The notes below the pieces were generated by a model that made no database searches, was not told where the DNA came from, and worked only from the letters and a program-made list of their open reading frames with translations. This document shows, in pieces, positions 48,474 to 54,730 of a DNA stretch of 64,000 bases (within the stretch, counting starts at the first letter, position 1; each line of letters starts with the position of its first letter). Source of the stretch: Arthrobacter sp. UM1. Its GTDB lineage: Bacteria > Actinomycetota > Actinomycetes > Actinomycetales > Micrococcaceae. Both the position numbers and the translations under genes were made by a program. The stretch spans positions 310,001 through 374,000 of the forward strand of contig NZ_JACWAB010000002.1 in the NCBI RefSeq assembly GCF_020483305.1, written 5' to 3'.

Positions 48474-49796
48474 TCAGGGCAGCGGCGGAAGCGCGGTGTC
48501 CGAGAGCCACGGGAGAAGGACCTCCCGCGTCTCGGAGCCGTGCAGGTCCTCGACCAGGCTGAGGAAGTCCTCGGTGGAGGCCGTCGCGTGGGCGAACCGG
48601 GACTGGAAGCGCGAGAGCACCGCGAAGAACGCCTCGGAGCCGAGGGCCGCCCGCAGGGCATGGAGGGCGAGGGCGCCGCGCTTGTAGACGCGGTCGTCGA
48701 ACATGTCCTGCGCGCCCGGGTCGGCCAGCGTGAGGGTCTGGGGCTTGGCGGCGAGCCCCGCGTAGGCCTCCTCCGCCTCGGCCCGTGCCGTGGAGCGTCC
48801 GGACTCCTCGGCCCAGAGCCACTCCGCGTAGCAGGCGAATCCCTCGTGGAGCCAGAGGTCCTTCCACTGCCGCAGCGTCACGCTGTTGCCCCACCACTGA
48901 TGGGCCATCTCGTGCGCGATGAGCCGCTGGCTCTCCCACGCGGAGGTGAGGTGGTTGGCCCCGAAGAGGCTCATCTCCATCGCCTCGAGCGGGATCTCGA
49001 GCTCGTCGTCGCTCACCACCGAGGTGTAGGCCTCGAAGGGGTAGGGGCCGAAGCATCGCTCGAAGAGCGCGAACATGGCCGGCTGGTCCGCGAGCGCGGC
49101 GCGCGCCTTCCGGGCCAGGGCATGCGAGGCGGCGAACCCGACTCGCCCGGTGTGCTCGACGACGTCGTACCGGCCGATCTGCAGGGCGGCGAGGTAGGTG
49201 CTCGTGGGGTGCTTCTCCCGGTAGACCCAGCGGTGTGTGGACCCCTTGCGAGCGGTGTCGACGAGCTGTCCGTTGGCGAGGGCCCGGTAGCCGGCGTCCG
49301 TCCACACGGCGATGTCGAAGGTGGCCTTGCAGGACGGGTGGTCCACGCAGGGGAACCAGGTGGGCGCGCCGTTGGGCTGGCCGGCCACGAGCACGCCGTC
49401 GGTCAGCTCCTCCCAGCCGACCTCGCCCCAGAGGCCTCGGCGGGGCCCGGGCGAGCCCTCGTAGACCACGGTGACGGAGACCTCGGCGTTGCGGGGGAGG
49501 TCGTGCTTGGACGTCAGGAAGAGGTGGGTGCGGGTCTGTTTGACGCGCTCGGCCGGCTTTCCGTCGATGAGGGCCTTCTTGACGCGCAGCCCTACGAGGT
49601 CGAGGACGAGCTGGCGCGTCGTCGCCGGGATCCGGCCGGTGATGACGGCGGTGCCCGTGAGGCGGTTGTTCCGCAGCCGCACGGAGAGGTCCAGCTCGTA
49701 GTGCCGCGGGACGATCCCGGCCCGCTCGGCCCCGGGCAGGTACGGGTCCTCCGCGGGGTCGTGGAGACGGTGGTGGTCGGGCGGGAGAGTCGTCAC
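48474..49796 (-). CDS. M1 family zinc aminopeptidase (possible polyamino-acid hydrolase)
   Basis: 440 residues. The N-terminal beta-saddle domain (RHYELDLSVRLRNNRLTGTAVI) precedes a catalytic domain with zinc motif HEMAH at 295-299 and the third ligand E318 in WLHEGFACYAEW. The exopeptidase motif that is normally GAMEN reads EAMEM at 281-285. The C-terminal helical domain of large M1 enzymes is absent, as in the short actinobacterial forms. GTG 49796 lies 12 bases after the NRPS-like gene's stop on the same strand, with AAGGA overlapping that stop. Poly-lysine-degrading enzymes of Streptomyces are M1-type peptidases, so a role on the neighbour's product is inferred. Confidence 0.9.
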   Translation of the reverse strand: MTTLPPDHHRLHDPAEDPYLPGAERAGIVPRHYELDLSVRLRNNRLTGTAVITGRIPATTRQLVLDLVGLRVKKALIDGKPAERVKQTRTHLFLTSKHDLPRNAEVSVTVVYEGSPGPRRGLWGEVGWEELTDGVLVAGQPNGAPTWFPCVDHPSCKATFDIAVWTDAGYRALANGQLVDTARKGSTHRWVYREKHPTSTYLAALQIGRYDVVEHTGRVGFAASHALARKARAALADQPAMFALFERCFGPYPFEAYTSVVSDDELEIPLEAMEMSLFGANHLTSAWESQRLIAHEMAHQWWGNSVTLRQWKDLWLHEGFACYAEWLWAEESGRSTARAEAEEAYAGLAAKPQTLTLADPGAQDMFDDRVYKRGALALHALRAALGSEAFFAVLSRFQSRFAHATASTEDFLSLVEDLHGSETREVLLPWLSDTALPPLP

Positions 49797-49808: not shown

Positions 49809-52800
49809 TTAGTCAGCGGGGGTCTCGAGCCAGGGCGCCACCGGGTTGCCCGTCCAGCGGGTGGAGCCGGGGATCCGCTCCCCGCGCATGACGAGCGAGG
49901 CGGGGCCCACGGTGGACGCCTCGCCGAGCTCGGCCGCCGGCAGGATGACGCTGTGAGGTCCCAGTGTAGAGCCTGCCTCGAGGGTCACTGTGTCGATGGC
50001 CATGACGCGGTCGTGGAAGAGGTGGGTCTGCAGGACGGTGCCGCGGTTGACGCTCGCGCCGTCGCCGAGCGTGACGAGATCGGCCTCCGGAAGCCAGTAG
50101 GACTCGAGCCAGACGCCGCGCCCGATCTTCGCGCCGAGCGCTCGCATCCAGAGCGTCATGGCGGGCGTGCCCGCGGCGGCGTAGGCGAACCAGGGAGCGG
50201 CGACGAGCTCCACGAACGTGTCCTGCACCTCGTTGCGCCAGATGAAGGAGCTGAAGAGCGGGTGCTCGCCCGGGCGGATCCGGCCCACGAAGATCCACTT
50301 GGCGGCGACGGCGGAGCCCGCGGCCGCGAGTGAGGCGGCGAAGGCCACGAGCCCGGAGAGCAGCGCGGTGCAGAGCGCCGCGCCCCAGGCGGGCAGCCCG
50401 GCCTCGAGGAGCGACGTCCAGATCCACGAGAGCGCCATGAGGACGCCGGCGGCGAGGAGGGCGGACACCATGACGGGCACTCCGCGCAGCAGCTCCCACC
50501 CGGCCCGGGCGGCCTTGAGGCGGGGACCCGGCGCGAAGGTGCGGTCCGACTCGGACTCGACGGCGGTGCGGCGCAGGCGCGAGGGCGGCGAGCCGAGCCA
50601 CGAGGAGCCGGACTTCGCCTTGGCCGGTGCGGCGGAGAGCACGGCCACGAGCGAGTTCTTGGGAACCTTGCGTCCGGGCTGCGCCATGCCGGAGTTGCCG
50701 AGGAAGGAGCGCTTGCCTACCTTCGCGGGGCCGATGTGGATCCAGCCGCCGCCGAGCTCGTAGGTGGCCACCATCGTGTCGTCGGCGAGGAACGCCCCCT
50801 CGGCCACGGTGGTGAGCGAGGGGATGCAGAGGACGGTGGAGATCTCCACGTTCTTCCCCACCTTCGCGCCGAGCATCCGCAGCCACACGGGAGTGAAGAG
50901 CGAGGCGTAGAGGGGGAAGAGCAGCTCGCGGGCCGAGTCGAGGAGGCGCTCGGTGGCCCAGGCCTGCCAGCCCACCCGGGAGCGCACGGGCCAGTAGCCG
51001 GGGCTGAGACCGATCGCGAGGAGCCGCACGGCACCCACAGTGAGGAGGGCGAGCACGGCGAACCAGACGAGTCCTGCGAGCGGCACGGCCCAGAGCGCGG
51101 GCAGGATCCGGGCGTGGAGGGAGCCGGTCTCGGCGAGGCCGGCGGCAGAGGCGGCGAGCAGGACGCCCGGCACCGCCGCGAGGAAGGGCAGGAGGGAGAG
51201 CAGCGCTCCCGAGGCGGCGTAGACGAGCGCCCACGCGCGGCTGCGGCCTGGCCGCTCGGCGGGCCAGCTCGGCTTGGCCCTGCCGGTCGGGGCCGCGGGG
51301 GAGCCGGAGGCCCGGCGTCCGGCGGGGATCCGGCCCGTCACGGCGGAGCCCGGGTCGATGTGCGCGTCCCGGCCCACCGCTGCGCCCGGGCCCAGCGTGG
51401 ATCGCCCGCCGATGTGGGCGCCGGCGCCGATCCGGACCGCGCCGATGTGGACGGCGTCTCCGTCCACCCACCAGCCGGTCAGGTCCACGTCCGGCTCCAC
51501 GGAGGCGCCCTCGCCGATCTTGAGCATCCCGGTCACGGGCGGCGCGGAGTGCAGGTCCACGCCCCGGCCGATCTTCGCGCCGAGCGCCCGGGCGTAGTAG
51601 GGCACGAGCACGGCGGAGGAGAGCGAGACCGCGCCCACGAGGGACGCGATCTGCTCCGCCGTCCAGAGCCGCAGGTGGACCGATCCGGCGCGCGGGTACG
51701 TCCCCGGCTTCACACCCCTCAGCAGGAGCCGGGCGGCGGCCACGGAGACGGCCATGCGTCCCACGGGCGCGGCGAAGACGAGCCACGCGAGGGCGGTGGC
51801 CCACAGCGGCGGGGCGGGGATCTGCGTGCGGACTCCCGCCCAGTCGAGGACGGTCAGGCCGATCGCGAGGTACACGAGCCACCGCAGCCCCACGAGCACG
51901 AGCGAGGGGACGCCCACGAGCGTCTGCGCCCACTGGGCCCGCTTCGGCGTGCGCCGCACGGTCCGCTGCTCCGCGAGCGCCGGCGGCCCGTCCGCCTGCC
52001 CCACGAGGTGCTCGGCGAGCGCGCCGACCCGGGGCCTGTCGTAGACGTCCGCCACGGTCACGGCGGGGTAGCGCTGCCGCAGCACGGAGACGAGCTGCGC
52101 GGCCTGGAGGCTGCCGCCGCCGAGCGCGAAGAAGTCCGCGTCGAGGCTCCCCGGCGCGGCGGAGAGTGCCGCTGCCCAGGACTCCACGACCCACCTGGCC
52201 TCCGGGCCGAGCGCGTCGAGCTCGGCGGTGTCGCCGTCGTCGTCCCCGGCGCCCGCGAGCGGCCACGGGAGCGCGTCCCGGTCCACCTTTCCGGAGGACT
52301 TCGTGGGGAGGGTGTCGACGACGGCGAGCCGCGGGACCAGCGCCGCGGGGAGGTCTTCGCGCAGCGCGGCGGAGGCCGCCGACTCGTCGAAGTCCGCGCC
52401 CTGCTCGGGAACCACGTAGCCCACGAGGACCTGCGGGGAGGCGCCGCCGCCCTTGACCGCCGCCGCGGCCCCGTGGACGCCGGGGAGGGACTGGAGGGCG
52501 GACTCGACCTCGCCGAGCTCGATCCGGCGCCCGCCGAGCTTGACCTGGTCGTCCGCGCGGCCGTTGAAGAGCAGGCCGGCCGGGTCGTAGGTGACGAGGT
52601 CGCCGGAGCGGTAGGCGCGCTCCCAGCCGAGAGTCGGCATCGGGGCGTACTTCTCGGCGTCCTTGGCCGGGTCGAGATAGCGGCCGAGCCCCACGCCGCC
52701 GATGATGAGCTGTCCGCTCTCTCCCTCGGCCACCGGGACCTCGTCCTCGTCCACCACCGCGAGGTCCCAGCCGTTGAGGGGCAGGCCGATGCGGATGGGG

Positions 52801-53723
52801 CCCTCGCCCGTCATCGGCGCGGCGCAGGCCACGACGGTGGCCTCGGTGGGCCCGTACGTGTTCCACAGCTCCCGTCCCTCGGTGGCGAGGCGCGCAGCGA
52901 GCTCCGGCGGACAGGCCTCGCCGCCGAAGATGAGCAGGCGGACGTTCTCGAGGGCCTCCGCGGGCCAGAGCGCCGCGAGCGTGGGCACCGTGGAGACCAC
53001 GTTGATCTCGCGGGAGACGAGCCACGGGCCGAGGTCCACGCCGGAGCGCACGAGCGAGCGGGGCGCGGGGACGAGGCAGCCGCCGCTGCCCCACGCGAGC
53101 CACATCTCCTCGCAGCTCGCGTCGAAGCCCACCGAGAGCCCGGCCAGGACCCGGTCCCCGGGGCCGAGCGGCGCGTCCTGGAGGAAGAGCTGCCGCTCGG
53201 CGTCCACGAACGCGGCGGCGGAGCGGTGGGAGATGGCCACACCCTTCGGCGTGCCCGTCGAGCCGGAGGTGAAGATGACCCACACGTCGTCCTCGAGCCG
53301 CGGCCGCCGGGGCGCGGGATGCGGGGCGGTCCGCTCGCCGGAGAGGACCACGCCGTCCTGCGTGGCGACCCCGGCCACGCGGGCCTCGGAGAAGACGAGC
53401 CGGGCCCGCTCCTCGGGGTCGTCCGCGTCCACGGGCACGTAGGCGGCGCCGATCGAGACGGCCGCGAGGATCGCGGTGTAGAGCCGGCTCGTGCCGGAGG
53501 GGATGCGGATGCCCACCTTGTCCCCGGGGCCTAGGCCGAGAGCGGTCATCTCCCGTCCCGCCTCGAGCACCGCTGCGTGCAGCTCCCGGTAGGTGAGGGG
53601 CCGTTCGCCGTCGTCGAGGGCCGGCGCCTCGGGGTGCGCCTCGACGGTGGACTCGAAGACCTCCCAGAGAGTCCGGGGAGCGGGGGCCTGAGCGGAGCCG
53701 GGGAGCTGCGGGGAGTGGATCAC
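49809..53723 (-). CDS. Membrane NRPS-like synthetase, epsilon-poly-lysine-synthetase (Pls) architecture
   Basis: 1304 residues. Adenylation domain at about 20-500: A3 FTSGSTGTPKG (151-161), A5 NTYGPTEAT (288-296), A7 YRSGDL (371), A10 SGKVDRDAL with K479. Carrier domain with FFALGGGSLQ, phosphopantetheine serine S538. Then six membrane helices in three pairs, each pair followed by a soluble hexapeptide-repeat acyltransferase-like domain carrying ALGAKIGRGV or LGAKVGKNV. There is no condensation or thioesterase domain. This is the Pls layout (about 1300 residues). The code read by eye against GrsA is DAESIGTVVK, with an acidic E205 suited to a basic side chain. GTG 53723 overlaps the quinone reductase stop (GTGA). 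The product is not proven; many Pls-like proteins are uncharacterised. Confidence 0.9.
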   Translation of the reverse strand: MIHSPQLPGSAQAPAPRTLWEVFESTVEAHPEAPALDDGERPLTYRELHAAVLEAGREMTALGLGPGDKVGIRIPSGTSRLYTAILAAVSIGAAYVPVDADDPEERARLVFSEARVAGVATQDGVVLSGERTAPHPAPRRPRLEDDVWVIFTSGSTGTPKGVAISHRSAAAFVDAERQLFLQDAPLGPGDRVLAGLSVGFDASCEEMWLAWGSGGCLVPAPRSLVRSGVDLGPWLVSREINVVSTVPTLAALWPAEALENVRLLIFGGEACPPELAARLATEGRELWNTYGPTEATVVACAAPMTGEGPIRIGLPLNGWDLAVVDEDEVPVAEGESGQLIIGGVGLGRYLDPAKDAEKYAPMPTLGWERAYRSGDLVTYDPAGLLFNGRADDQVKLGGRRIELGEVESALQSLPGVHGAAAAVKGGGASPQVLVGYVVPEQGADFDESAASAALREDLPAALVPRLAVVDTLPTKSSGKVDRDALPWPLAGAGDDDGDTAELDALGPEARWVVESWAAALSAAPGSLDADFFALGGGSLQAAQLVSVLRQRYPAVTVADVYDRPRVGALAEHLVGQADGPPALAEQRTVRRTPKRAQWAQTLVGVPSLVLVGLRWLVYLAIGLTVLDWAGVRTQIPAPPLWATALAWLVFAAPVGRMAVSVAAARLLLRGVKPGTYPRAGSVHLRLWTAEQIASLVGAVSLSSAVLVPYYARALGAKIGRGVDLHSAPPVTGMLKIGEGASVEPDVDLTGWWVDGDAVHIGAVRIGAGAHIGGRSTLGPGAAVGRDAHIDPGSAVTGRIPAGRRASGSPAAPTGRAKPSWPAERPGRSRAWALVYAASGALLSLLPFLAAVPGVLLAASAAGLAETGSLHARILPALWAVPLAGLVWFAVLALLTVGAVRLLAIGLSPGYWPVRSRVGWQAWATERLLDSARELLFPLYASLFTPVWLRMLGAKVGKNVEISTVLCIPSLTTVAEGAFLADDTMVATYELGGGWIHIGPAKVGKRSFLGNSGMAQPGRKVPKNSLVAVLSAAPAKAKSGSSWLGSPPSRLRRTAVESESDRTFAPGPRLKAARAGWELLRGVPVMVSALLAAGVLMALSWIWTSLLEAGLPAWGAALCTALLSGLVAFAASLAAAGSAVAAKWIFVGRIRPGEHPLFSSFIWRNEVQDTFVELVAAPWFAYAAAGTPAMTLWMRALGAKIGRGVWLESYWLPEADLVTLGDGASVNRGTVLQTHLFHDRVMAIDTVTLEAGSTLGPHSVILPAAELGEASTVGPASLVMRGERIPGSTRWTGNPVAPWLETPAD

Positions 53724-54730
53724 GGCGTGAGGACGATCTTTCCGGTGGTCGAGCGGGACGTGAGCGCATCCTGCGAGTCTGCCGCCCGGGCGAGCGGGTA
53801 CTCCGTGACGGAGACGGCGAGGTCGCCGTCGGCGAGCGGCCCGAACACGTCGGCGGCCCGCCATGCGCGCTCCTCTGCGGTCGCGAGGAAGTGCGCCAGC
53901 GAGGGGCGCGTCAGGACGAGGGAGCCGCGGCGGTTGAGCTCCTGCGGGTCGAACGGCGGTACCGGGCCGGAGGCCGCGCCGAAGAGGGCCATCGTGCCGC
54001 GCGGCGCGAGGCTCGCGAGGGACTCCTCGAAGGTGGTGCGGCCGACGCCGTCGAACACCGCCGCGACGCCGCGGCCGCCCGTGGCCTCCCGGACGCGGTC
54101 GGCGAAGCCCTCGTAGCCGAAGGCCTCGTCCGCGCCGGCGCTCAAGGCGAGCTCCCGCTTCTGCGGGGTGGAGGCCGTGGTGAAGACGCGCGCCCCGCGG
54201 CGCTTGAGCATCTGGATCGCGATCTGCCCCACGCCGCCCGCGCCCGCGTGGATGAGCACCTCGTCCCCCTCGCGGACGGGGTAGACGCTCGTCATGAGGT
54301 AGTGCGCGGTGAGGCCCTGGAGGCTCGCGGCGCAGGCCGTCGCGAGGCTGAGCCCCTCCGGCACGGGGATGAGGTGGTCCGCGGGGGCGAGGCAGTACTC
54401 CGCGTAGGAGCCGACGGCGCTCGCGGTGGTCACCCGGTCTCCGACCCGCACGTCCTCGACGCCCTCGCCGACGGCGACGACCGTCCCCGCCGCCTCGGAC
54501 CCCAGCACCGCCGGGTACTCCACGGGGTAGGCGCCGGAGCGCTGGTAGGTCTCGATGAAGTTGACGCCGGCCGCGGCCACGCGCAGCAGGGCCTGGCCGG
54601 GACCGGGGGAGGGCACGGGGCGCTCGGCGGTGCGGAGCACGTCCGAGCCGCCGGCCTCGCGGGCCTCGACGACGGTCATGGTCTCCGGGACCTGCAAGGT
54701 CCTCTCCTCGGGGGCGGCGGGATGCGGCAC
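53720..54730 (-). CDS. Quinone oxidoreductase (zeta-crystallin type, MDR family)
   Basis: 336 residues. A zinc-free medium-chain reductase with a GroES-like domain (AAAGVNFIETYQRSGAYPVEYPAVLGSEAAG) and an NADPH fold (VLIHAGAGGVGQIAIQ near residue 165), matching NADPH:quinone reductases. Its stop overlaps the NRPS-like gene by 4 bases, so both are made from one message. GTG 54730 is the longest start; an internal ATG at residue 18 (MTVVEAREAGGSDVLR) matches family N-termini as well. Its promoter must lie in the 111 bases shared with argC. Confidence 0.93.
   Translation of the reverse strand: MPHPAAPEERTLQVPETMTVVEAREAGGSDVLRTAERPVPSPGPGQALLRVAAAGVNFIETYQRSGAYPVEYPAVLGSEAAGTVVAVGEGVEDVRVGDRVTTASAVGSYAEYCLAPADHLIPVPEGLSLATACAASLQGLTAHYLMTSVYPVREGDEVLIHAGAGGVGQIAIQMLKRRGARVFTTASTPQKRELALSAGADEAFGYEGFADRVREATGGRGVAAVFDGVGRTTFEESLASLAPRGTMALFGAASGPVPPFDPQELNRRGSLVLTRPSLAHFLATAEERAWRAADVFGPLADGDLAVSVTEYPLARAADSQDALTSRSTTGKIVLTP

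Follow-up and report, generated by a model that had tools for sequence, protein, structure and literature searches.

A probable epsilon-poly-L-lysine synthetase gene and its predicted PldII-type peptidase partner in Arthrobacter sp. UM1

The closest described systems to the locus considered here are the Pls of Streptomyces, whose adenylation (A) domain has been solved as 7WEW, the Pls proteins of Corynebacterium variabile and other coryneforms, and PosA, the delta-poly-L-ornithine synthetase of Acinetobacter. In S. albulus, pls is reported to be translationally coupled to pldII, a 1404-bp open reading frame (ORF) (PMC9223678). The C. variabile enzyme is 51% identical to that of Streptomyces and is reported to yield the antimicrobial polymer epsilon-poly-L-lysine (epsilon-PL) when expressed in S. 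coelicolor (PMC8117764). Here we analyse a pls gene in a 64,000-nucleotide stretch of Arthrobacter sp. UM1 (positions 310,001 to 374,000 of contig NZ_JACWAB010000002.1; hereafter, the window). Judging by its sequence, the gene is very probably a canonical pls, whose product would adenylate L-lysine and make epsilon-PL, and whose neighbour would encode a PldII-type M1 peptidase. The window pls-peptidase operon is an ordinary example of a gene type already common in its bacterial group.

Domain layout and predicted substrate

The gene (49809..53723, minus strand; protein P0001) begins with GTG at 53723, ends with a stop codon at 49811-49809 and encodes 1304 residues with no internal stops. A preliminary description of this DNA had given the same extent, leaving the strand unstated, and the frame is indeed intact. 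The protein starts with an A domain at about residues 10-490 (52254..53696, minus strand), identified by alignment to 7WEW and by its specificity code. It is followed by a carrier, or T, domain at residues 510-573 (52005..52196, minus strand; Pfam PF00550, PP-binding) and by a Pls/PosA terminal domain at residues 599-1295 (49839..51929, minus strand). The latter comprises six transmembrane (TM) helices and three hexapeptide-type segments, C1 to C3, as judged from TIGR02353, hydropathy and a structural model.

TIGR02353, the curated NCBIfam profile for “Pls/PosA family non-ribosomal peptide synthetase”, matches the terminal domain from profile position 2 to 695 of 695 with a score of 710 bits (cut-off, 423), which places the protein in the Pls/PosA family. 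At E <= 0.001, Pfam recognizes AMP-binding at 23-346, PP-binding at 510-573 and hexapeptide at 763-797; neither condensation nor thioesterase families match at this threshold. Hydropathy reveals three pairs of strong membrane segments, six in all (approximately 608-626/644-662, 840-858/888-906 and 1084-1102/1115-1133); two weaker segments, at 81-99 and 692-710, were excluded from the TM count. The protein therefore has the layout of an epsilon-PL synthetase, namely A-T, six TM helices and three tandem C domains with neither a condensation nor a thioesterase domain, as had been proposed earlier.

An AlphaFold2 model of residues 590-1298, made with 33 sequences, is confident (predicted local distance difference test 86.7, predicted template modelling score 0.89). 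It consists of three pairs of long helices, after each of which comes a run of short strands, and the modelling reported for PosA (PMC10522769) is consistent with it. Matches of this model to the PDB are weak, and all of the top ones are hexapeptide acetyltransferases such as CysE (best E-value 4.8e-4); the structure search did not locate the active site. In a literature search on terminal-domain structure, the PosA paper was the only one among the matches listed to concern a terminal domain of the Pls type.

The substrate pocket of the A domain consists of D201, A202, E205, S244, I265, G267, T289, V297, V298 and K479, giving the code DAESIGTVVK. All ten positions of the earlier by-eye assignment were verified, which rules out a misread pocket. 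The solved epsilon-PL synthase A domain, 7WEW, carries the identical ten residues. It is also the closest solved relative (638 bits; the chain ranked second, which contains two A domains, reaches 318), with 64.4% identity over 475 aligned positions. Divergence from the Streptomyces enzyme is greater over the full length: the window Pls is 53.9% identical over 1298 residues to the Streptomyces Pls L158, our nearest full-length stand-in, which in its A domain shares 93.3% identity with 7WEW. The order of domains is the same.

Given that the pocket is identical to that of 7WEW, that the A domains are 64% identical and that the peptidase partner is conserved (see below), lysine specificity is strongly indicated. 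Lysine is by far the likeliest substrate, in line with the lysine-like code suggested in the preliminary description, and both this assignment and epsilon-PL as the predicted product are well supported. The code DAESIGTVVK is found in 127 of 132 aligned rows, counting the window protein and 7WEW; all rows are distinct, and one pair is 98% identical. Deviating codes are DFECLSVVTK in three distant family members (L103, L104 and L106), DAESIGTVIK in P0002, a second Pls of the same genome, and DAESIGTIIK in L124. A literature search for the strings DAESIGTVVK, DAESIGTVIK and DAESIGSVVK gave no match; codes in a figure of PMC8117764 lie outside the reach of that search.

It is very unlikely that this Pls-family enzyme makes a different cationic homopolymer, whether delta-poly-ornithine, gamma-poly-diaminobutyrate (Dab), beta-poly-diaminopropionate (Dap) or epsilon-poly-beta-lysine. 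The family does span all of these polymers (PMC10522769), and argC, argJ and argB (named by eye), which are arginine/ornithine genes, begin adjacent to the pls region in divergent orientation. However, lysine, ornithine and Dap or Dab are reported to go with Ala, Met and Phe, respectively, at code position 2 in the family (PMC10522769), and the window Pls has Ala202 within a code that is entirely that of 7WEW. The ornithine product that the arginine genes might suggest was discarded in view of the pocket. Moreover, the Phe-code members mentioned above are only about 28% identical to the window Pls, and visual inspection of the frames listed between 45 and 58 kb revealed no recognizable genes of Dab/Dap or beta-lysine pathways. 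Jiang et al. also describe the other three synthetases as lying in a gene context unlike that of pls (PMC8117764). For the proven PosA, PDAP and PDAB synthetases, this comparison draws on published codes and descriptions. According to its description, PosA has the same A-T-six TM-C1-C3 layout, and its code likewise has Asp as the first and Glu as the third residue, but it differs in its overall code (DMEHNGTVSK), its single-gene operon and its Acinetobacter host (PMC10522769).

The peptidase partner, integrity of the gene and proposed mechanism

The canonical Pls reading includes a partner gene, which encodes a 440-aa M1-family zinc metallopeptidase (48474..49796, minus strand; PF01433 and PF17900) and starts 12 nt past the pls stop. 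An HEMAH motif is visible by eye, and a zinc metallopeptidase beside pls is the mark of a PldII neighbour. Three Streptomyces/Kitasatospora plasmid records have an M1 gene next to pls, and the window peptidase is 39-43% identical to their products. The M1 gene of a Streptomyces plasmid homologue is 1404 bp long and overlaps pls by 4 nt, in agreement with the length and coupling of pldII as reported for S. albulus. By contrast, the window peptidase gene does not overlap pls, and its host, which groups with Micrococcaceae, has a 2.39-Mb genome. The coryneform systems, compared by description, have in common with the window a non-filamentous actinobacterial host and a pls-peptidase operon, and for C. 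variabile the product is proven (PMC8117764).

We examined conservation of this arrangement in 80 named loci, which a motif scan for ASCEEMW and GAAYVPVD ranked best out of 595; loci from the genus, same-family and order/phylum genome searches were chosen without a motif. An M1 homologue lies downstream of pls on the same strand in 79 of the 80, the exception being L089. For 77 of these 79, no more than about 120 nt separate it from the aligned pls end (using an extrapolated start), and the distance is about 590 nt in L028 and 1,210 nt in L059.

On the other side of pls is a gene resembling zinc-binding dehydrogenases and quinone oxidoreductases (53720..54730, minus strand). Its TGA stop overlaps the GTG start of pls (GTGA), and because of this overlap the two genes are probably co-transcribed. 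A homologue of the oxidoreductase-like gene occurs near pls in five of the 80 named loci, argC in five and pheT in four, all of them in Micrococcaceae; argC and pheT are both present in three (L012, L014 and L015). Since flanks of at most 6 kb were examined, these neighbour counts are lower bounds.

The pls gene shows signs of being maintained. Across 125 canonical relatives, 310 alignment columns are at least 98% invariant, and the window Pls differs in three of them (A199G, E745D and L1193M). Two of these deviations are in the terminal domain and both are conservative, so that the near-invariant residues of C1-C3 are retained. This count rules out a loss of conserved C1-C3 residues; the preliminary description had named loss of catalytic residues in the three C-terminal domains as grounds for abandoning its reading. 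The same-genus homologue L092 is 77.5% identical over 1301 codons, with a nonsynonymous rate (dN) of 0.169 and a synonymous rate (dS) of 0.596, indicating that pls is a gene under purifying selection and not a chance frame. The gene is present in all three genomes of the genus, our own counted, although one copy is a fragment at a contig end.

We propose the following mechanism. The A domain, given its pocket, would turn L-lysine into its adenylate, and the carrier domain, which is itself clearly present, would presumably receive the lysine on its phosphopantetheine arm. The membrane-embedded C1-C2-C3 unit would then link lysines repeatedly, each bond joining the carboxyl group of one residue to the epsilon-amino group of another. 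If mechanism and export resemble those of the Streptomyces enzyme, the product would be epsilon-PL of a few tens of residues, exported from the cell. Operon structure and homology suggest that the neighbouring M1 peptidase would act as a PldII-type polymer degrader that protects the producer.

Several points weigh against this interpretation. Agreement of codes at the first pocket positions among the 80 named loci is partly due to the motifs by which they were selected. Codes can also mislead: the nearest code match of PosA is a lysine domain, yet PosA prefers ornithine (PMC10522769). As to the peptidase, PldII is reported to be located outside the membrane (PMC9223678). No N-terminal signal was seen by eye in the 440-aa window peptidase, unlike the Streptomyces M1 homologue beside pls in L157, which opens with an RR-containing, hydrophobic, leader-like stretch; the window peptidase may be an intracellular enzyme. 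Finally, epsilon-PL was reported to be undetectable both in C. variabile itself and in C. glutamicum expressing its Pls (PMC8117764), and the window gene may therefore be silent. Nonetheless, we consider a silent or decayed pls that yields no product to be extremely improbable in view of the intact frame, the ratio of dN to dS, the retained near-invariant residues and the presence of the gene in all three genomes of the genus.

Distribution of Pls in the family

The epsilon-PL synthetase reading places the gene in a well-populated group. The TIGR02353 cut-off is passed in 114 of 197 same-family genomes (the host counted), with 83 below it; the 114 include A-less and distant members, and are thus an upper bound for canonical Pls. 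Among 14 control genomes, one passes. At least 20 of the 197 have two or more frames of at least 1200 aa above the cut-off. Pls is on record in Micrococcales genera (PMC8117764), and clusters for non-alpha poly-amino acids (NAPAA, an antiSMASH class) are reported as one of six cluster types that predominate in 121 Micrococcaceae assemblies, with all nine strains of that study carrying them (PMC11078813). NAPAA clusters are also described in Kocuria and Pseudarthrobacter (PMC12149201, PMC12025171). These clusters represent the same family and the same gene class as the window pls, and the descriptions show no difference from it. Thus, while the preliminary interpretation holds as regards membership in the Pls family and lysine, its suggestion of an unusual host does not.

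In a tree of 100 rows (all trees were calculated in quick mode), the window Pls and its genus-mate fall inside a cluster of Micrococcaceae and Brevibacteriaceae, and many rows sort by family. Inner branches are open in 26 of 97 cases. Plasmids, too, carry Pls at or near full length: of 72,556 records, 19 have a match at E <= 1e-100, and 18 of these matches cover at least 80%. They come from Mycobacterium avium/intracellulare, Rhodococcus opacus, Streptomyces and others (e.g., NZ_CP076859.1 and NZ_AP012556.1). Because of the open branches and the plasmid copies, vertical descent of Pls is a tendency only.

A separate observation concerns other synthetases of the host. Contig C14 of its 2.39-Mb genome (G000) carries, at about 93-114 kb, two large non-ribosomal peptide synthetase frames, of 4183 and 3201 aa, in each of which AMP-binding matches several times.

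A second synthetase type and A-less variants

The second Pls of the same genome, P0002, is encoded outside the window (G000:C10:67103-71179, equivalent to L009:7103-11179, plus strand). It is 48% identical to the window Pls and differs from the canonical set in 40 of the 310 near-invariant columns. Its neighbour is a gene for an HGSNAT-type membrane acyltransferase (L009:11207-12688, plus strand). Draws from the order and phylum had made P0002 appear to be a near-orphan with L124 as its sole close relative, but this was overturned by the search of the 197 same-family genomes: 26 further genomes match P0002 at 1357 bits or more, whereas canonical Pls proteins reach at most 1185 (this count leaves out pieces in G055 and G173).

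We call this type Pls2 and analysed a set of 27, i.e., all 26 matches and the L124 contig (loci L165-L190 and L156). Their codes are DAESIGTVIK (21), DAESIGTVVK (4) and DAESIGTIIK (1), with one incomplete (L170), and on this basis the Pls2 pocket is still lysine-like, with Ala at position 2 and Glu at position 3. An HGSNAT-type homologue is located on the same strand, at or past the end of the synthetase, in 26 of the 27 loci, the exception being L170, where there is room for only 93 nt. None of the 80 named canonical pls loci has an HGSNAT homologue, and no M1 homologue was found in any of the 27 Pls2 stretches fetched. A branch of a 57-row tree separates the 27 Pls2 rows from the others, though with an SH-aLRT support of only 82. 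Canonical Pls is also present in at least nine of the 26 Pls2 genomes. Two Pls types therefore exist, with different partners.

Enzymes of the HGSNAT superfamily transfer acyl groups across membranes to amino groups. AT3-type proteins, which have been likened to HGSNAT, are described as passing acyl groups across membranes (PMC12423673). Going by the acyltransferase partner alone, we tentatively raise the possibility that the genome holds two parallel lysine-polymer systems, in which Pls2 might make an N-acylated, less cationic epsilon-poly-lysine with a role in the envelope or in storage, and not as an antibiotic. No paper linking the Pls and HGSNAT-type families was evident from the titles or the beginnings of abstracts among the matches listed. 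Downstream of P0002, L009:12820-18269 contains an agmatinase-family gene and then, on the other strand, genes for a thiamine-diphosphate enzyme and an aldehyde dehydrogenase (by eye), a set that recalls an arginine-to-gamma-aminobutyrate route.

Some same-family genomes encode Pls-like proteins of about 1030 aa that have three carrier domains and hexapeptide repeats, and lack an AMP-binding match. Examples are L160:2919-6035 (plus strand), L161:1856-4975 (minus strand) and L162:2418-5504 (plus strand). As to an adjacent A domain, no second, non-overlapping frame of at least 400 aa is present within the 6.5-7.5 kb fetched.

The window gene adds one more likely maker of epsilon-PL outside Streptomyces, a point that is already published. 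Of greater interest would be what the polymer does in nature, its genes being retained by purifying selection in a genome of small size, and which products the Pls2-acyltransferase pair and the A-less triple-carrier variants make.

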